Source: Algoriphagus aquaeductus (GTDB taxonomy: Bacteria; Bacteroidota; Bacteroidia; Cytophagales; Cyclobacteriaceae). From it: 64,000 bases of DNA. The DNA lies in the NCBI RefSeq assembly GCF_003253485.1, contig NZ_QKTX01000005.1:186001-250000 (forward strand), given 5' to 3'. Made by a program: the position numbers and the translations under genes. Below the pieces are notes generated by a model. It saw nothing but the letters and a program-made list of their open reading frames with translations. It was not told the DNA's origin and did not search any database. Below are positions 9,286 to 17,531 of the stretch, in pieces (the stretch's first letter is position 1; every line of letters begins with the position of its first letter).

Positions 9286-10512
9286 TTACAACCCGGTCAC
9301 ATATACCATCGCTTGGGATTTGGAATTCAGATTACCCTGTCTTTGACCATTTCGGTATCCTTGTCCCACTCTCAACAGACCACCACTTTCAAAATTGATC
9401 GCTTCCAGATTAAGAACCTCTTTGTAATATCCCATATCAAAGTTGGGACCCAGTACTTTCCCTTTGATATGGTGCCAAATCTCCACTTCAATATCCACCT
9501 CCGGATTATTCAAATCTTGACTAGAAATGGTAAAATCCCGGATATATTCAGGTGTGTTTGGTAAATCTACCCGGTAATCATATCGGGAATCTCTTGAAAA
9601 AGGATTGGATTCGGTCCGATCAAAGTAATTCGCCGATTTATTTCCAAAAGGTCGGATCTCCTCTCTTCCACCGGAGGTAACCCGATACATTCTGACTCCC
9701 GCAAACCCATAAATCTCCGGATTTCTATGGCTCGGTATTTCCTGTGCCAGGATTGACCCCAGTCTAACGGTGATTTTTTTGGTGGCCGAGGCGATAACCG
9801 GAGCCGTTACGGCTCTATTGGATTTGACGATTTTATTTCCCGACCATGCAGGAGATTCTGTCATTTCTGGATTCCATCCCCATTTTCCTTGAAATTCATT
9901 TCCAGAAAATGCAAATTCCAGGTACCCGGTGCGGCCATTGTTGGTGAAGGTTCCTTTCAGGATTTTCTTCCCTTTGTCAAAGGTGGCATCAATATCTCCC
10001 AGGCTCCCATACTTGCCCGTGACTCGATTTCCTACCTGCTGTAAGTCAAGCTCGGCAAAATTGGTTTTCCACTTTCCCGACCAAACTCCTGTTTCCAGAT
10101 TGCTCACTTTACTGGTGGACGTGCGTTTCCCATTCCAATTGAATTGAGTATTTCCGGTTTGAAAATCAGAGATAAAGTAAACTCCCTTGCCTCGTAAATC
10201 TTGGAGTGAAATGGAATTATCGTAAGCAAAGTGTCCGCTAAATCCCTGAGCTTGAAGATCTGCTCCTGATCTCCACAGAAATTTTCCCCGGGCATTGCCA
10301 TTGAAAAACACCCCGTGTAGTTCATGGTCCCGGTTGAAGTACTCAAAAGCCAAAATGGTCCCATTTCCGGCATAATCCCCGTAGTAGATTCCGTTTTCGT
10401 AAACCAGTTTCACGGGACCATATTGGGTTTGATAGGTCCCTTCCCACATTTGGGCATAGGTGACTCCTGAGAGGAGAAAAAAAAGCAAACTTAAAATTCG
10501 ATGGATATACAT
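9286..10512 (-). CDS. Exported protein of unknown function with two lipocalin-like repeats
   Basis: A 408-residue exported protein. The start at 10512 (MYIHRILSLLFFLLSGVTYA) gives a clean signal peptide ending AQ; a start ten codons earlier only adds a tail. Two similar segments follow: one near residues 21-110 (MWEGTYQTQYGPVKL..NGIYYGDY) and one near 140-225 (VWSGKWKTNFAELDL..GNRVTGKYG), both with W.G.Y/W.T...G...G.Y. This pattern suggests small beta-barrel or lipocalin-like domains. The C-terminal part (about 245-400) is different and ends in a beta-rich segment. It is the last gene of a four-gene exported-protein cluster starting with an OmpA-like protein. No family name is recognised. Confidence 0.72.
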   Translation of the reverse strand: MYIHRILSLLFFLLSGVTYAQMWEGTYQTQYGPVKLVYENGIYYGDYAGNGTILAFEYFNRDHELHGVFFNGNARGKFLWRSGADLQAQGFSGHFAYDNSISLQDLRGKGVYFISDFQTGNTQFNWNGKRTSTSKVSNLETGVWSGKWKTNFAELDLQQVGNRVTGKYGSLGDIDATFDKGKKILKGTFTNNGRTGYLEFAFSGNEFQGKWGWNPEMTESPAWSGNKIVKSNRAVTAPVIASATKKITVRLGSILAQEIPSHRNPEIYGFAGVRMYRVTSGGREEIRPFGNKSANYFDRTESNPFSRDSRYDYRVDLPNTPEYIRDFTISSQDLNNPEVDIEVEIWHHIKGKVLGPNFDMGYYKEVLNLEAINFESGGLLRVGQGYRNGQRQGNLNSKSQAMVYVTGL

Positions 10513-10599
10513 AAGAGTTAAAATTCTGTGAAATGAAATCAAAATTTTCTATACAAAATTCAATTGCATGGTTTACAGTACCTTACCATATCAGGTTGC

Positions 10600-11004
10600 T
10601 CATTGGGATGCCGTTCTGTTCACAAAGAAATCTTCAATTACCTTGCTAGGCCTCGAATCCTTGTAGCGTATAGTGGTTTTGATATAGCCATCATAGGCTT
10701 GGGCATCACGGGAAAAGCTATAGAAAACCTCATAAGTTCGGCGAGCCAGCTTATCCTCCCGGGAAACTGTCATTTTATACCGATTGATGCGATCCTCATC
10801 GTTGAAAAACTGCGGAACTTGATTCCAAGTCTGCATCAACACCTGCTTCCCCCCCACCATGTGGTAAAGTGTGGTTTGATTGTTCTTGACCTCAAATCGT
10901 GGGATATTTTGGGTAGCATTGATATTGACAAAGTTGAGATTTTGGGCTTTGGCGGAAAAAACCATCGCACAAAGCAAGAGTAGAACGAAATGAAGATTTT
11001 TCAT
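10600..11004 (-). CDS. Small exported protein of unknown function
   Basis: A 134-residue protein with a signal peptide (MKNLHFVLLLLCAMVFSAKA, cleavage before QNL). The mature protein is polar, about 113 residues, and has no motif that I recognise. It lies 40 bases after the lipoprotein gene and 87 bases before the 9286-10512 gene on the same strand, so it is probably part of the OmpA-like operon. Its size and predicted beta-strand pattern would suit a small periplasmic domain. Confidence 0.68.
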   Translation of the reverse strand: MKNLHFVLLLLCAMVFSAKAQNLNFVNINATQNIPRFEVKNNQTTLYHMVGGKQVLMQTWNQVPQFFNDEDRINRYKMTVSREDKLARRTYEVFYSFSRDAQAYDGYIKTTIRYKDSRPSKVIEDFFVNRTASQ

Positions 11005-11044
11005 TTTGAAAGAAGTTTATGGAAAAGAAGAATAATGCGATGAG

Positions 11045-11749
11045 TTATAGTTTGTTCAGAATCTGGTCGGCCAGTAGGATAAGCTTTTGCTTGAGGACCG
11101 AAGATTCCCCTGCTTGATTGATCGTCAGCCGAAACATAAAGCCATCCTGATAAACATAGAGTGAAGCGTCCTCAGGCATCCACGTGGCAGCCTCCCCGAC
11201 TTCTGTCACCTGTTCGCGGGTCTGGTTTCCAGCCAGTCCCGCACCGAATCCACCTGCCAAATCTGCTTGATCCTGCGTGATTTCTCCCTTACTCACCCGG
11301 TCTTGGAGTGCGTCCTTCATCAATTGATTGGATTGTTGAACCTCCTCGGGAGACAGGACCCGATATTGAAATTCAAAATCCTTCTTGCTGATTTTCTGAA
11401 TACCACTAAGTTCAAGTCGATCCAAGTCAGGCACCTGTACCGTCATATTCCCTACGGTCATTGGGCGGGTTCGACCTCGGTCCCACGTGTAATTGAGCGC
11501 ATGAAAAGATGGGTTGGAAAGGGTGGTATTGTAATCCACATCAGCCTCTTGCGCAGGAAAACCCATTGTATTTGCCGCCATTTCCAGCGTGAGCAGTTCA
11601 TTCAGTTTGCCTTCATAGGCTTTTGCTGCTTCAAACAATCCTTTGGACTCGGCCAATTTCACAGCCTCTTCGAGGGCATTGGAATTGCCTTTTTCTCCAC
11701 AGGAAACCATTCCCAGAAGAATCAGCACGTAGAAAATCTGAGTTTTCAT
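11045..11749 (-). CDS. Lipoprotein of unknown function
   Basis: A 234-residue predicted lipoprotein. The signal MKTQIFYVLILLGMVSCG has a lipobox with the acylated Cys at residue 17. The mature sequence is mixed alpha/beta with charged helices (for example EEAVKLAESKGLFEAAKAYEGKLNELL) and no catalytic motif. The gene starts three bases past the stop codon of the OmpA-like gene, so the two are very likely co-transcribed and the products may work together at the outer membrane. Function is unknown. Confidence 0.75.
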   Translation of the reverse strand: MKTQIFYVLILLGMVSCGEKGNSNALEEAVKLAESKGLFEAAKAYEGKLNELLTLEMAANTMGFPAQEADVDYNTTLSNPSFHALNYTWDRGRTRPMTVGNMTVQVPDLDRLELSGIQKISKKDFEFQYRVLSPEEVQQSNQLMKDALQDRVSKGEITQDQADLAGGFGAGLAGNQTREQVTEVGEAATWMPEDASLYVYQDGFMFRLTINQAGESSVLKQKLILLADQILNKL

Positions 11750-11752
11750 CGC

Positions 11753-13081
11753 TTACTTTTTGATGAATTCCACCCGACGATTTTGCGCTTTACCATCCGA
11801 GCTCCCATTATCAGCTATAGGCTCGGATTCCCCTTTTCCCTCTGTACTCATACGGGCCTCATCAATGCCAAATTGACCCGAAAGCGCTGATTTGACCGCT
11901 TCAGCTCGCTTTTGAGAAAGGGTTTGATTTAGGCTAAGGTCTCCATCACTGTCTGTATGACCGATGATATGTACATTCACAGATTGGTTTTCTGTAAGGA
12001 CTCCGGCGATTTCTTTTAGAATTCCATAGGATTCCGGCTTGATTGTGGCCGAACCAGAATCAAACACGATCCCTTGCGTGATCAACTTGCCTTCGGTGAT
12101 CAACTTGGATCTGGTATCGGGCTGCCCCACTGCAAACCGGAGATTAGAAAGCAAAAACTCTCTGTTTTCCACGAAAAATGTTGCGGTCCCAAGAACAAAC
12201 CGATACTTACCTTCCGACTGAAAAGCCCTGGGAATATCCCATACCTTGGATTCATTGAGGTAAACCCTAAGCCTTGATTTTTGCTTCCAGATTGACACTT
12301 TGACAAAGGCATATTCCTCTCCATTGGGAATAAAAAATTGCTTTTGAGGCTTTACGTTTTCGACTACTGCATCCCCGTTGATATTATAGGAGAAAATTGC
12401 CGTGTTTCCAGTGTTAGGTTCGAGCTCAATAATCGTGGCATTCGCAGTACCAAAATCCAGAATGTTAGCGCTGTGATTTTCATCAATAAAGGCCAATTTG
12501 GTCAACACTGCATTTTCTTTGATTACTGCGAGGTCAAACTCGATGGTACAGTTCTCAGGAAGTGCCCCTACAAATTCAGGATAAAGTACGCCCTCGTCAG
12601 AAAAAACCAACCATTTGCCTTCAAGCCCTTCGATCGTTACCACTTCACCGGAAGAATTGGTATTCCACCGAGCCGGAAAATCACCGACTGCATCCTGAGA
12701 AAAGTCCTCAAAAGCAATCACCCGCTCACCGGGTATAAAGTCAAAGTTGGAATAAGCCTGGATTTTCGCAGATGCATTCCCATCCGTCTCAATTACCTGA
12801 GATGGTGAAGAGCTCCTTCCATTTTCATCATAGCTTTGGGTTTCGGCCTCCGACTCCTCGTCCCCTTCTCCTGATTTATCCGCTTTACCCTTTTTTTTGA
12901 AAAGATTATTGACCCCTTCTTCCATTTTATTGAAGGCCTTGTCAACCGTTTCCGAAGTTTTGTTTTCTACTTTTCCTTCGGTTTGGGATTTGGTATTGAT
13001 TACAATTCTCCTACCCAGATTTTGGGCATGCCCCTGAACCACAATTCCGATGCAAAGTCCCAGGATTAAAAATTTTTTCAT
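11753..13081 (-). CDS. OmpA family protein with central carbohydrate-like fold
   Basis: A 442-residue exported protein. A signal peptide (MKKFLILGLCIGIVVQGHA) is followed by an acidic, low-complexity linker (about 40-110). A beta-rich middle domain (about 115-320: AFEDFSQDAVGDFPARWNT onward) looks like a concanavalin/LamG-type fold. The C-terminus (about 335-442) is an OmpA/MotB peptidoglycan-binding domain with HIIGHTDSDGD, LSQKRAEAVKSAL and NRRVEF, including the Asp and Arg that contact diaminopimelate. It would anchor an outer-membrane or periplasmic complex to the cell wall. It is the first of four minus-strand genes for exported proteins and is divergent from the ECF sigma gene at 13379, with about 300 bases between. 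Confidence 0.88.
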   Translation of the reverse strand: MKKFLILGLCIGIVVQGHAQNLGRRIVINTKSQTEGKVENKTSETVDKAFNKMEEGVNNLFKKKGKADKSGEGDEESEAETQSYDENGRSSSPSQVIETDGNASAKIQAYSNFDFIPGERVIAFEDFSQDAVGDFPARWNTNSSGEVVTIEGLEGKWLVFSDEGVLYPEFVGALPENCTIEFDLAVIKENAVLTKLAFIDENHSANILDFGTANATIIELEPNTGNTAIFSYNINGDAVVENVKPQKQFFIPNGEEYAFVKVSIWKQKSRLRVYLNESKVWDIPRAFQSEGKYRFVLGTATFFVENREFLLSNLRFAVGQPDTRSKLITEGKLITQGIVFDSGSATIKPESYGILKEIAGVLTENQSVNVHIIGHTDSDGDLSLNQTLSQKRAEAVKSALSGQFGIDEARMSTEGKGESEPIADNGSSDGKAQNRRVEFIKK

Positions 13082-13253
13082 GATGCGATGAGGTTAAATT
13101 CCTCTGTTAGTGCATCAGCGATGGAGAAGTAAACATACCATTGAGATTTTTTTGCGCTTTTATATCATACCCATTTATCAAAGTGAAAAAAGTTGAGTAG
13201 TCAAGAATAAGACTTTGTCCAGCTAGATAGGTTTCCCCATAATAGCCTATTGG

Positions 13254-13298: not shown

Positions 13299-13378
13299 CA
13301 TTGTCTAACCTCTTAAATCATATCTTTTGCTTCTTATCCGAAAAAATCTATGTTTACTTTTCCATACTTTTTGAACCA

Positions 13379-13918
13379 ATGGATGTGAAAGAAAAGCAGC
13401 TGGAACTGCTGAAAGCAGGTGATCGGGAAACCTTAAAACAAATCTATCTCTCGCATAAAAAAGGCTTCAGGCTCTTTGCGAAACGCTATACCTCAGATGA
13501 TGACCTGATTGACAATGCCTATCAGGATGCCATCATTGTGTTGGCAGAAAATGCTCAAAAAGGAAAAATTCAAACGCTCAATTCCAGTATCGGAACCTAT
13601 TTGTATTCTGTTGGAAAATTTATCCTGTTTAAAAGCCTGAAAAAGAATCACCTGACCAGTGAACTGACAGAAGAGGTCAAGGAAGAACTGATATCGGAAA
13701 GCTTTGAGGAAGAAACCAAGGATGAAATGATCCTCAGACTTCGCCAAAAACTCGAAAATCTTGGACCAAAATGCCGGGAGATTCTCCGACTCTTTTACTA
13801 TCAAGCCAAATCCCTCGATGAAATATGCCAAATCATGGGATATGATTCCAAAGAGGTCCTGAAGAGTACTAAATCCCGATGCCTGAAAAGCCTCAAAGAC
13901 ACCTTGAACCAAACCTAA
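13379..13918 (+). CDS. ECF-type RNA polymerase sigma factor
   Basis: A 179-residue sigma-70 family factor from the ATG at 13379 (MDVKEKQLELLKAGDRETLK). The frame is open further upstream, but there it encodes repeat-derived sequence without family character. Region 2 spans about residues 18-90 (FRLFAKRYTSDDDLIDNAYQDAI) and region 4 spans about 115-175, with a helix-turn-helix in KSLDEICQIMGYDSKEVLKS. There is no region 3, as in ECF factors. The stop codon is one base before the start of the next gene, which encodes a membrane protein with the layout of an anti-sigma factor. The target promoters are unknown; the divergent OmpA-like operon is a reasonable candidate. Confidence 0.9.
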   Translation: MDVKEKQLELLKAGDRETLKQIYLSHKKGFRLFAKRYTSDDDLIDNAYQDAIIVLAENAQKGKIQTLNSSIGTYLYSVGKFILFKSLKKNHLTSELTEEVKEELISESFEEETKDEMILRLRQKLENLGPKCREILRLFYYQAKSLDEICQIMGYDSKEVLKSTKSRCLKSLKDTLNQT

Positions 13919-13919
13919 T

Positions 13920-14654
13920 ATGGACCAGGAAGAACTTATCAACGCCTATCTTGAAGGAACACTCAGTCCTGAAGACCAAGAACTGTTCGAAAAATTACTT
14001 GAAGAGCAACCTGAATATAAAAAGTTGCTTGAGGAGCATAAAAAGGTCAAAATTGCTGTAACCTTACAGGAAAGAAACGACCTCAAAGCCATTTTGAAAG
14101 AAATTGATCAAGAGGAAAAAGACCGCCAAAAGCCCTCAAGCCCTGTCAAGTCATGGCTCTTTTCAGGAATTGCCGCCTGTCTGATAGTTATAACCGGCTT
14201 TTTCCTTTGGATCAACTTGAGTATGAATCCGGGGGAAAAATTATTCAAGAGCTATTATGAAACTTATCCCAATCTGGTAGCACCCACAGTAAGAGGTGAT
14301 CAAGAATCAACTCTAAAATCAGATGCCTTTCTGGCTTTTGACAATGGCGACTTTGAAAATGCAGCCAGCCTGTTTGACCGGCTACAGAATGAAGCAGGGG
14401 GTGATTATGCCGCATTTTATTCGGGGATTTGCCAATTGGAACTAGGTAGACCGGAAAAAGCCATTCCCTTATTTCAGAAAGTTAATGAAAATGCCTCCCA
14501 ACCCGACAAAATCACCGCAATTTGGTTTGAGGCCTTGGGATACTTCTTGCTCAATAAGCTTCCCGAAGGAAAATCACTCATGACAAAAGTGGCTGCTTCC
14601 CCAGGGCACCCTCTCCAGAACCGTGCTCAGGAAATTCTGGAAAAACTAAAGTGA
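13920..14654 (+). CDS. Putative anti-sigma factor, single TM helix with periplasmic TPR domain
   Basis: A 244-residue predicted membrane protein, called an anti-sigma factor from context and layout. Residues 1-76 are charged and helical, starting MDQEELINAYLEGTLSPEDQ, a pattern common to anti-sigma cytoplasmic domains (inferred; no zinc-binding HxxxCxxC is present). One hydrophobic helix lies at 79-100. The region 101-244 is predicted periplasmic and contains TPR-like helices (AFLAFDNGDFENAASLFDRL, then YSGICQLELGRPEKAIPLFQKV). It starts one base after the sigma stop codon, so it is translationally coupled. Its last nine bases overlap the 3' end of the convergent CHAT gene. Confidence 0.78.
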   Translation: MDQEELINAYLEGTLSPEDQELFEKLLEEQPEYKKLLEEHKKVKIAVTLQERNDLKAILKEIDQEEKDRQKPSSPVKSWLFSGIAACLIVITGFFLWINLSMNPGEKLFKSYYETYPNLVAPTVRGDQESTLKSDAFLAFDNGDFENAASLFDRLQNEAGGDYAAFYSGICQLELGRPEKAIPLFQKVNENASQPDKITAIWFEALGYFLLNKLPEGKSLMTKVAASPGHPLQNRAQEILEKLK

Positions 14655-17531
14655 ACCAGGTCTTTTTCTGGACTTTCGGAGAAAAATAATCCATCCCAAC
14701 ACTAATCCAAGGCATCCGAAAACCATGGCAAATTTCGCCTCTTTGGACCACCAAGAGGAAGACAGCGGGTCTGTTTTGCCATTGAGAACAAATCCTGACC
14801 AAAAAAGCGGATGATTTTTTAAAGGGTTTTCCTGAATAAACTGCCTCTTCGCATGGATTAAGGCGATGTGCTTTGGTTTTCCCGCTTTGATGCCTCTGTA
14901 AAAATTGAGCATAACCTCGGCCGTTTCCTTATCGGGGATCGCCCAAAGACTGTAAACGGTACTTTTGACGCCTGCCAAATTCAAGGCCTTGGAAAGGCTC
15001 ATTAGCCCCTCTCCAGGCATCAGTTTGCCCATTCCTGTTTGGCATGCGCTAAGGACCACAAGTTCGGAGGGGAAATTTACCTGATATAGGTCTCTCAGGA
15101 GTAGCTTATCTCCCCCTGAAAAAATCAAGGCAGACTCCTCATAGTTTACCGGATTTTGCTCTGCATGCATAGCCAGATGGTGTATCTGATAATCTGTTAG
15201 GCTGTTGATAAAAGCAGTCTTATTGGCATGTTGACCAATCATAGCCTTACCGTCCACCAATCCCGTCAAGTTGACTACCTCCTCGAGATTGTTTTTAATA
15301 GCCTGATAGCCAGTACCCTGATAGTCTGGCGCAAAAGCTACCAAGAAATCAGCCCCAAAACGATCATTTTTTGGACTTTCATAGGCCATCTCTCGAAAAG
15401 ATTGCTGGTAAGACATGAAATGATTCTGAACCAAAAAATCTCCTTTTTCATCTATCAGCGCCTCAAAAGGTATCCCATGCAGCCGATCGTCAGGAAGAAT
15501 ATAAATCTCTTCCCTCAGAGATTCGGCAAAAGGAGAAACCAGCAGTCGGTAAAGTGTGGCAGCAGGAGATCGGTAACTATCATCCAAGCGAACCATGGAA
15601 TTTCGAAACTCCTCCACCCAGGAATTGACCATCTCCACCGGGGCCAAGGAATAAACCTGAAGATCGTTCTGATGAATCAATAAAGCGAAAATTTGCTTTT
15701 CGGTCACCAGGTATTTCAACACTGACAAATTTGGAGGTAGGTCCCTTTGAAATGATAGAATGTCAAAAGGCCTGTTATAGAAACGGTAAGCTTCCTCTTC
15801 CTGAATCCTTTTTTCTATTTGGTGAAGTTCTTCACGGAGACTCTTTTCCCTGCCTTGGGATAACTGACCTTGATTCAGCTCTATGGTTTTTAGATTAAGC
15901 TCTTTTAAAAATTCAGAAGTAGAACCAAGGAACTCCTCATTTTTGCTTAGAAATTTTTTCCAGCCCTGTTGCGAATCATTTCGCTCCACTAACTCCAATA
16001 GGCGGATCTTCTTTTCAGAGGTGAGCAGCCCATTTTCATTCCAAAGCGAAAAAATGCCTTCCTGAATCTGTTTGTTTATCTCTTCCAAGGATTGGGTGTA
16101 ACTTCCCTTCAGGTAATATTCCTGAAACATCTCCCCTGCCACCTGAAACAAATTCAGAGAAGAACTCAAATCTTGAAGATTAGAATTTTTCTTGCCCATC
16201 CGCATTAAAATCTGACCGGATTTGATCAAGATGGTGAGGTACCGTTCATTATTCAACTGCTTAAAATCCGAATAGGTAAGTTCTGCAATCCCTTTACGAT
16301 TAATGGGCTTTTGGAGGAGATCACTCAACATTTTTTCCAACATCTCCATGGATTTTCCTTCCTCTCCGAGACGATTCAAAAGATCCGCCTGTAAAACTTG
16401 TAATGAAAAACCACTTGAACCTCCAAATCCGTATCGTTCCAGGAGGCTTAAGCTTTTTTGCGCATAGTCGAGCGATTTTTGATTTTCACCTGCATCATAA
16501 TATACTATGGCCTGGTTGGCAAGATATTTCATCTGAAAAAATCCCGAAAGAGGAAGGGATTTCATTCGTTCGTAGTAGCCTACTGCCGCTTGGAAGTTTT
16601 TCATCTCCTTTTGGAGAAAACCTGCTTCTTCATAAATCGCGGCCATTACTCCCCATTGTTCCTCAAAAAAATCCCGAGGTGCATGTCGGATTATCGCCTC
16701 AGCTTGAATTAATATCCGATCCAATTGCCGGTCATTTTTTGTGGCTCCATAAAACCTGGAAAAGTTCAATAGAAGCTTCATTTCAAGATCTAATTCCTCG
16801 ATTTCAGATAATCCAAAGGACTTTTTGGTCTCAGTCACATACCTTTGAAAAAAGGCCAAGAGCTCCTCGGCTGCCGTATAGTTGCCATATTCTATTTCAG
16901 CAAATATCAGGTTATTCAGTACAGTTGAAATATTCGAAAATTCATCCAAGTGACTCGTTTTCCATATTTCAAATGCTCGGTAATAACTTTGCTTTGAGCG
17001 GTTCTGAAAACCAAGGATATCCTGAACATAGCCCAGGTTGTTATGACAAAGGGCCAGTTCGGAAAAATTGGGCTTGGCTTGAAGTTCATAAAGTTGGATT
17101 GCACGCGCATAATTGCGACTGGATTCCAGCATTTTTTCCTGGTAGAGATAAATGTCTCCTTTCTGAAAGTAAATGCTGGCCCAAGCCTCCTCAGGCAGAG
17201 TCTTATATTCAGGAATATTTTGAAGTGAGTCCGCAAGCAAGAGACCTTTGTCGCCTTCTCCATTGGAGTTGAAATAGGCCATTTTGATGGCTGCAAAACG
17301 AATATTTTCAGGAAGAGAAAAGGTGATTTTCCGATTCAAAAGCGCTTCATCTACTTGCTGAAGTTGCGAAAGGAGTTGTTCTGGCGAATTTTCAAACTGT
17401 TGTTTTTCCAATCTGCGCAAAAGTGAATCATTGTTCTGAGCCCAGGATAAGATTGGAAACAAAAGGAATCCGAACAAAACAAGTAAATATCCAATAATCA
17501 GAGAAAAGTTACCTTTTGACTTAGCGATCAT
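14646..17531 (-). CDS. Exported TPR-CHAT protease-like protein with C-terminal TM anchor
   Basis: A 961-residue protein. Residues 1-32 form a signal peptide or N-terminal anchor. A long region, about 40-560, consists of TPR-type helical repeats (for example FQKGDIYLYQEKMLESSRNY and ALCHNNLGYVQDILGFQNRS). A CHAT domain (caspase-like, clan CD) fills about 590-920, with the catalytic His789 in HLAMHAE and Cys830 in LVVLSACQTG, plus SLWAIPDKETAEVMLNFY. A helix at about 934-950 followed by LRKSRKR would anchor the C-terminus, placing TPR and CHAT in the periplasm. Both catalytic residues are present, so it is probably an active peptidase. It converges with, and overlaps by nine bases, the anti-sigma gene. 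Confidence 0.87.
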   Translation of the reverse strand: MIAKSKGNFSLIIGYLLVLFGFLLFPILSWAQNNDSLLRRLEKQQFENSPEQLLSQLQQVDEALLNRKITFSLPENIRFAAIKMAYFNSNGEGDKGLLLADSLQNIPEYKTLPEEAWASIYFQKGDIYLYQEKMLESSRNYARAIQLYELQAKPNFSELALCHNNLGYVQDILGFQNRSKQSYYRAFEIWKTSHLDEFSNISTVLNNLIFAEIEYGNYTAAEELLAFFQRYVTETKKSFGLSEIEELDLEMKLLLNFSRFYGATKNDRQLDRILIQAEAIIRHAPRDFFEEQWGVMAAIYEEAGFLQKEMKNFQAAVGYYERMKSLPLSGFFQMKYLANQAIVYYDAGENQKSLDYAQKSLSLLERYGFGGSSGFSLQVLQADLLNRLGEEGKSMEMLEKMLSDLLQKPINRKGIAELTYSDFKQLNNERYLTILIKSGQILMRMGKKNSNLQDLSSSLNLFQVAGEMFQEYYLKGSYTQSLEEINKQIQEGIFSLWNENGLLTSEKKIRLLELVERNDSQQGWKKFLSKNEEFLGSTSEFLKELNLKTIELNQGQLSQGREKSLREELHQIEKRIQEEEAYRFYNRPFDILSFQRDLPPNLSVLKYLVTEKQIFALLIHQNDLQVYSLAPVEMVNSWVEEFRNSMVRLDDSYRSPAATLYRLLVSPFAESLREEIYILPDDRLHGIPFEALIDEKGDFLVQNHFMSYQQSFREMAYESPKNDRFGADFLVAFAPDYQGTGYQAIKNNLEEVVNLTGLVDGKAMIGQHANKTAFINSLTDYQIHHLAMHAEQNPVNYEESALIFSGGDKLLLRDLYQVNFPSELVVLSACQTGMGKLMPGEGLMSLSKALNLAGVKSTVYSLWAIPDKETAEVMLNFYRGIKAGKPKHIALIHAKRQFIQENPLKNHPLFWSGFVLNGKTDPLSSSWWSKEAKFAMVFGCLGLVLGWIIFLRKSRKRPGSL

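Follow-up and report, generated by a model that had tools for sequence, protein, structure and literature searches.

A 64,000-nucleotide stretch of the Algoriphagus aquaeductus genome (contig NZ_QKTX01000005.1, positions 186,001 to 250,000 of the forward strand, hereafter the window) carries three adjacent genes: an extracytoplasmic function (ECF) sigma factor (179 amino acids, 13379-13918, plus strand), a membrane protein with the layout of an anti-sigma factor (244 amino acids, 13920-14654, plus strand) and a TPR-CHAT protein (961 amino acids, 14646-17531, minus strand). For most CHAT proteins the targets of cleavage are not known. The original prediction, made from the letters of the window, had described the three genes at the right coordinates and had suggested a CRISPR-free (clustered regularly interspaced short palindromic repeats) membrane signalling module in which the protease releases the sigma factor. 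We consider it probable, at roughly 0.6, that the CHAT protein serves as the site-1 protease of an envelope-response sigma pathway.

The sigma/anti-sigma/CHAT trio is a recurring module whose genes occur together beyond chance. Searches with the CHAT and anti-sigma proteins in 145 related genomes returned matches that repeatedly adjoin each other. A set of 121 loci (L numbers below) from 83 genomes (G numbers) was assembled from 60 loci around anti-sigma matches, 60 from a class-wide search with the anti-sigma alignment A1, and the window; it holds 126 anti-sigma relatives. A CHAT gene lies within 3 kb of 83 of these, farther away in the locus for four, and is absent from the locus for 39. The 83 CHAT-adjacent anti-sigmas are spread over 64 genomes, the CHAT gene being no more than 50 bp away in 54 cases, and in 81 of the 83 modules a sigma gene lies 300 bp or less from the anti-sigma gene. 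Because the loci were chosen by anti-sigma similarity, with 21 of the 24 rows of A1 being CHAT-adjacent, 83/126 is a biased rate. The 39 rows without CHAT include five with less than 3 kb of DNA on one side, a probable TPR false match by our own reading (L209, 17994-18683) and one row, L115, that a lax DPG rule places in the Met class described below with a loop without Met; all were kept in the counts. In the reverse direction, an anti-sigma match was found within 6 kb of 43 of 80 CHAT matches (the first 80 places listed, with at most five candidates scored per genome), compared to about 0.43 expected for random placement in 5-Mb genomes. With a Met-class CHAT query seven loci were obtained, each with sigma, anti-sigma and CHAT genes together (7/7). 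Three belong to already sampled genomes and four to Chitinophagaceae outside the sample, where the full trio was present in 4/4; the latter are all Met class and were found with a CHAT query. Two of these Chitinophagaceae loci (L224 and L225) have a fragmented CHAT reading frame. CHAT proteins can be numerous, with up to 39 in one of 31 genomes. The expectation that the CHAT gene is conserved beside the pair in relatives is thereby borne out in all three counts.

In the window the anti-sigma gene begins at 13920, directly behind the end of the sigma gene at 13918, and converges with the CHAT gene in a nine-base tail-to-tail overlap, which had been proposed to keep the genes linked. Relative to the anti-sigma gene, CHAT lies downstream on the same strand in 32 modules, downstream on the opposite strand in 30, upstream on the same strand in 13 and upstream on the opposite strand in eight. 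Since all four arrangements exist, the linkage survives rearrangement: it persists on the same strand (45/83) and upstream (21/83), and the convergent overlap alone is ruled out as its cause.

The sigma factor matches TIGR02937 (E 1.6e-16) over residues 18-175 of 179, above the cut-off, as a short protein of the sigma-70 superfamily; Pfam matches to region 4 fall slightly under the cut-off, and no separate match to region 2 was obtained. The AlphaFold2 model of the anti-sigma protein (mean predicted local distance difference test score, pLDDT, 89.9) has helices at residues 3-12, 17-29 and 31-70, a membrane helix at 79-100 (14154-14219, plus strand) and a short helix at 104-112, beyond which come a loop (113-131) and the TPR helices (132-243). 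Its best Foldseek matches are TPR domains. Family matches are weak and below the Pfam cut-off (zf-HC2, E 0.0017; TPR_19, E 2.7e-5), and PRK13920 (E 5.4e-5) and NF052375 (E 9.5e-4) are also matched under threshold. By hydropathy, one helix is found in 123 of the 126 relatives, none in two and two helices in one. With its helical N-terminal part, its single membrane helix and its gene beside that of the sigma factor the protein fits a membrane anti-sigma factor, for which inhibition of the sigma factor is predicted.

The CHAT domain (residues 656-918; 14778-15566, minus strand) matches PF12770 with E 1.2e-47 and 163 bits against a cut-off of 24 bits. His789 (codon 15165-15167) and Cys830 (codon 15042-15044) are intact and are invariant both in 40 aligned CHAT proteins and in 76/76 paired with a classified anti-sigma. 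By domain and His-Cys dyad the protein belongs to the CHAT peptidase family, and proteolysis is predicted. For the AlphaFold2 model (mean pLDDT 85.9) the top four Foldseek matches are 7y84_C, 8eex_B, 8d9f_A and 8gu6_D, all TPR-CHAT/Csx29 chains of Craspase, followed by human separase. A sequence-profile search of solved structures gave TPR proteins among the best 60. The sixth and seventh Foldseek matches are DdvA, a transmembrane anti-sigma factor, probably reached via its helical repeats; a paper under that name was not found.

An N-terminal hydrophobic stretch (residues 10-28; 17448-17504, minus strand) is a likely export signal, and a second one near the C-terminus (residues 933-951; 14679-14735, minus strand) marks a predicted membrane anchor. 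Among 82 distinct adjacent CHAT proteins, some of them cut at contig ends, a hydropathy helix follows the CHAT domain by 1-18 residues in 78, the tail behind this helix is more positive than the stretch before it in 68 of the 78, and an N-terminal hydrophobic stretch at the threshold used is present in 65. We therefore predict from hydropathy that the CHAT protein is exported and held by its C-terminal helix and is not cytoplasmic. The CHAT domain would thus end beside its own membrane helix, which we count for a site-1 role. What had been read from the letters of the window, namely the ECF identity of the sigma factor, the anti-sigma layout with helix 79-100 and a TPR domain, the intact dyad, and a protease placed by predicted topology on the same side as the anti-sigma's TPR domain, agrees with these results. 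Of the membrane module as first proposed, the trio and its predicted topology stand, and the overlap as the cause of linkage falls.

In type III-E CRISPR systems Csx29 cuts Csx30, the inhibitor of an ECF sigma factor (PMC10028731, PMC9729208). The window resembles this Craspase system in that a TPR-CHAT protease is encoded near an ECF sigma factor and its inhibitor, and in the four Foldseek matches given above. In contrast, the protease of the window is predicted to be exported and membrane-anchored, its presumed inhibitor partner is a one-helix membrane protein, and identity to the window's CHAT protein in the structural alignment is about 12%. The RAMP family PF03787 gave no match in the own genome at E 0.001, whereas the same search matched 4/14 control genomes, and no CRISPR-like direct repeats were found in window positions 1-40000, in line with the CRISPR-free character first claimed. 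A type III-E Craspase identity was rejected on the missing RAMP-family match in the own genome and the predicted non-cytoplasmic protease. Separase shares the combination of helical repeats with a CHAT-type protease fold and cleaves after Arg in ExxR (PMC9729208); the window's protein differs from it in being bacterial and predicted to be envelope-located, and the motif considered below is YPNxxxPxxR[GS]. CHAT-domain proteins also occur in the genetic context of the ECF54 group, which PMC8999054 describes under sigma factors without anti-sigma. The CHAT neighbourhood is a likeness to this group, and the anti-sigma gene next to the sigma gene sets the window apart from it. No paper on a CHAT protease of the envelope with a membrane anti-sigma factor as its partner was seen among the literature matches listed. 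PADLOC gave no match for the CHAT or anti-sigma proteins, and a defence system was set aside on this ground; in the OmpA-family gene described below, the C-terminal OmpA region is matched by ZorB models, and a single weak match (E 0.0042) was obtained for the sigma factor.

The candidate segment for recognition and cleavage by CHAT is YYETYPNLVAPTVRG (anti-sigma residues 112-126; 14253-14297, plus strand), selected by loop conservation. It contains Arg125 (codon 14292-14294, plus strand), after which the scissile bond is proposed, and sits in the loop, some 25 residues beyond the membrane helix on the outer side. Residues 121-130 have a mean pLDDT of 59 and form a low-confidence stretch between two confident parts. 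Relatives have the same loop Arg or, in one clade, DPGLxxxMS with Met instead. A strict pattern is fitted by 77 of the 83 CHAT-adjacent anti-sigmas (38 Arg, 39 Met/Leu) compared to 19/39 without CHAT, and a lax uniform rule by 83/83 (44 Arg, 39 Met/Leu) compared to 24/39; the four anti-sigmas with a distant CHAT gene contribute one strict and two lax fits. A stretch of 11 residues taken from the TPR part would contain an Arg by chance with a probability of 0.30. The six strict misses have Gly, Ser or Asn next to the Arg (L086, L111, L122, L123), Arg-Ala (L168) or, in the doubtful case of L175, Arg-Leu at another spacing. In the 44 Arg rows the loop Arg lies 18-37 residues past the hydropathy helix, with Gly (21), Ser (16), Asn (4), Ala (2) or Leu (1) as the next residue. 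In the Met clade, Met-Ser is found in 33/39, 20-33 residues past the helix, bar one row in which the position was badly found.

It is conceivable, if improbable, that this loop is a docking or structural segment: the TPR domains of CHAT and anti-sigma would bind each other, the anti-sigma would inhibit or position the protease, and Arg125 would stay uncut. Such a role would suit the aromatic and YPN-like part of the motif, which is kept in several anti-sigmas without the Arg, and it has a parallel in Csx30, which binds Cas7-11-Csx29 regardless of protease activity (PMC10028731). However, the Arg stands in a low-confidence loop and has a small residue (Gly, Ser, Asn, Ala) next to it in 43/44 anti-sigmas, which speaks against a mere docking role.

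Several further modules and relatives were noted in passing. The same genome holds a second sigma/anti-sigma/CHAT set (G000:C10:93831-96997, L123) with the CHAT gene about 1.1 kb from the anti-sigma gene and the loop IPLMRS. Two CHAT units stand beside one anti-sigma in three loci: L073 has them as tandem genes, L074 and L078 as a single open frame with about 2,070 residues. One gene cluster has a member inside the module or close to it in 14 of the 82 CHAT-adjacent loci (L088, L094, L096, L098, L100, L104, L106, L110, L116, L119, L159, L166, L168, L197); the scanned representative, from L159, is of the beta-lactamase family (PF00144, E 2.6e-54). Five anti-sigma relatives from the same genus as the window (L065, L066, L067, L069, L070) have neither sigma nor CHAT gene in the locus and no Arg at the usual spacing, L070 being counted as Arg by the lax rule through an Arg at another spacing. 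They adjoin genes that resemble, by eye, iron-type ATP-binding cassette transporters, four of them have a shorter cytoplasmic part, and they are possibly repurposed membrane TPR proteins.

The CHAT proteins divide along the same line as the loops. Arg-class enzymes have Glu751 in 42/44 (one Asp, one gap), Leu/Ile745 in 43/44 and Asp867 in 42/44, whereas Met-class enzymes have Thr/Leu/Ala751 in 38/38, Gln745 in 37/38 and Glu867 in 37/38. At position 751 (codon 15279-15281, minus strand, in the window) an acid is present in every Arg-class CHAT with a letter there and in no Met-class one, and no mix-up of the classes was seen. Six genomes contain both classes (G071, G019, G070, G399, G509, G052). 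Glu751 is also found in 31 of 33 comparison CHATs, the exceptions L020 and L025 belonging to Met-class modules; many of these 33 are members of the same modules and form no independent control. In the predicted structure residues 745 and 751 lie at the loop and helix after strand 728-735, and residue 867 opens the helix after strand 857-861; in clan CD proteases, loops of such kind line the S1 pocket. The anti-sigma tree has two label changes, one of which is the doubtful row L115, so that the Met class changed enzyme and substrate together, essentially once. Within genomes, the TPR parts of Arg-class anti-sigmas co-vary with the CHAT protein encoded beside them more than with that of a paralogue (6 of 999 permutations as good, 10 multi-copy genomes); with both classes taken together, 0 of 999 permutations were as good. 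The conserved loop Arg (R125), and its replacement by Met in one derived clade whose CHAT enzymes differ at positions that are nearly invariant elsewhere, are what this comparison adds as new.

The likely output of the pathway lies on the other side of the sigma gene and had been overlooked in the first account of the locus, of which the trio stands. The promoter-like motif TGTTTAC-N17/18-ACYAA has 21 matches in 2.26 Mb of loci, compared to two for the reversed control. A called gene start is no more than 60 bp away from 20 of them; the remaining one, TGTTTAC-N17-ACCAA at 13351-13379 (plus strand), read in the sequence and obtained by pattern match, touches the start of the window's sigma gene. 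A second copy in the window, TGTTTAC-N17-ACTAA (13107-13135, minus strand), was obtained by pattern match 26 bp before an OmpA-family gene (11753-13081, minus strand; PF00691, E 2e-22) that is divergent from the sigma gene and a predicted sigma target. The motif also precedes the sigma gene in L064, L073, L074, L077, L078, L157 and L158, and in the same eight loci, the window included, it stands before an OmpA-family gene as well. In the window, L064, L157 and L158 this gene and the sigma gene diverge. In L073, L074, L077 and L078 it is found on the far side of the module, and the motif-bearing divergent gene there encodes DUF4412 (by Pfam in L073 and L077, by sequence similarity in L074 and L078). 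One more match precedes a lipoprotein-like gene in L157. At the sigma genes of three loci, the window, L064 and L157, the motif reaches the start codon as annotated, so either translation begins further inside the gene or the motif is something other than a simple -35/-10 pair. The eight motif loci all belong to the Arg class, and the exact motif was not seen in other Arg-class loci. The own genome has four matches, two of them in the window, compared to one for the reversed control; of the two outside the window, the one in L214 does not precede a gene start in its own orientation. Met-class sigma genes may have a separate promoter motif, TTGGG-spacer-GTAT, which occurs in 12/39 of their upstream regions, compared to at most five for any such pair in five shuffles.

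Behind the OmpA-family gene follow, on the minus strand, a gene that is lipoprotein-like by eye (11045-11749; homologues in L064, 42%, and L157, 29%), a small gene with a signal peptide by eye (10600-11004; L064, 43%; L157, 56% over 87 amino acids) and a last gene with an uncertain start codon (9286-10542; homologues in L157, in two pieces, and L162, one genome). Homologues of the OmpA-family gene itself occur in L064, L073, L074, L076, L077, L078, L157 and L158, all CHAT-adjacent, and more weakly in L162 and L210. For the run as a whole (9286-13081), 4/4 genes have homologues in L157, from a genome of another order, and 3/4 in L064. By its sharing of the motif with the sigma gene we regard this OmpA-led run as the likely output.

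An unlikely alternative makes the CHAT protein itself the output, the sigma system then controlling or monitoring an envelope protease or a cell-death executioner with other substrates. Another TPR-CHAT protease does cut a gasdermin (PMC9729208), and CHAT genes on the same strand often come directly after the anti-sigma gene (13 overlaps recorded as -3) and may be co-transcribed with the sigma gene. Against this, the CHAT gene and the sigma operon converge in the window and 29 other Arg-class loci, no copy of the motif was found ahead of the CHAT gene in the window, and the loop residue and the clade switch would be left unexplained.

Returning to the CHAT protein as a site-1 protease, the following course can be proposed. 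The anti-sigma factor would hold the ECF sigma factor at the inner membrane, and the TPR-CHAT protease, once exported, would be held to that membrane through its C-terminal helix and act on the anti-sigma from outside. An envelope signal might be sensed by the TPR array of CHAT, by the TPR domain of the anti-sigma, or by both. CHAT would then cleave the anti-sigma behind Arg125, within the loop that lies some 25 residues from the membrane on its outer side; this would remove the anti-sigma's TPR domain and leave a short periplasmic stub. An RseP-type M50 protease would cut this stub inside the membrane, and the freed sigma factor would turn on envelope genes, transcribing its own gene and the OmpA-family run via TGTTTAC-N17-ACYAA promoters. 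Support for the pathway comes from the recurring trio, the conserved loop residue, the intact dyad, the predicted topology and the motif. We infer the cleavage with its site and direction, the RseP step, the signal, the order of events and the binding of sigma to the motif; cleavage is proposed because a conserved Arg or Met lies in a suitable loop and a matching change is found in the CHAT clade.

Proteolysis of membrane anti-sigma factors is familiar from the DegS-RseP cleavage of RseA (sigma E) and from RsiW-type pathways, also named in PMC10028731. The likeness consists in a membrane anti-sigma, a cut expected outside the membrane near the helix, and an M50 homologue in the genome, where two PF02163 matches were found (best E 2.2e-71). 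The proposed site-1 enzyme, in contrast, is a cysteine protease of the CHAT/separase type encoded beside its substrate. Least probable of the alternatives is that another envelope protease, e.g. of DegS/HtrA type, performs this step, CHAT being no more than its modulator or a neighbour retained on other grounds: a sigma gene does lie within 300 bp of 27 of the 39 anti-sigmas without CHAT in the locus, but the CHAT linkage is far above chance, and ten neighbours scanned from nine loci without a close CHAT gene, which was not a full search and did not look for HtrA genes, gave no clear substitute protease and a lone weak match to the metallopeptidase-type PF07737 (19.3 bits against a cut-off of 27.4).

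A number of observations weigh against the proposed role of CHAT. The contrast in loop residues between 83/83 and 24/39 gives p 4e-9 in a Fisher test, but a motif-free tree leaves only three independent pairs whose branches are well supported (averages: 1.1 pairs in the same direction, 0 in the opposite one, 1.9 without difference), and the contrast is not significant there; the Fisher value was therefore dropped as independent proof of a joint loss of Arg and CHAT. The loop pattern is retained by 24/39 anti-sigmas without CHAT under the lax rule and 19/39 under the strict one. A CHAT protein elsewhere in the genome was considered as a reason for these Arg-bearing orphans and rejected as non-discriminating, being present in 18/18 genomes with residue-bearing orphans and in 9/11 with residue-less ones (exceptions G034 and G114). 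The change from Arg to Met amounts to essentially one event. The Met class showed no within-genome co-variation (357 of 999 permutations did as well, one informative genome), and congruence can arise from physical linkage alone because adjacent genes share their history. The M50 homologue lends no specific support since such a protein was found in 14/14 control genomes. Finally, any part of E751 in reading the P1 Arg is putative; in separase the P1 Arg is recognised by D2151, in whose place Craspase has Lys670 (PMC9729208).

A wider generalisation is more tentative, and we would put it somewhat short of an even chance: separase-like CHAT proteases, tethered on the outer side of the inner membrane, may be dedicated site-1 proteases for paralogous sigma/anti-sigma pairs across Bacteroidota, with specificity and cut site (Arg or Met) having changed together. 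Csx29-Csx30-sigma would then be a variant of an older and wider partnership of proteases with sigma factors. For a share of the CHAT proteins the proposal offers a substrate, a residue and an output. If it is true, the separase family would join the site-1 proteases that release sigma factors, and the CRISPR Craspase circuit would fall within a wider family of protease-controlled transcription.

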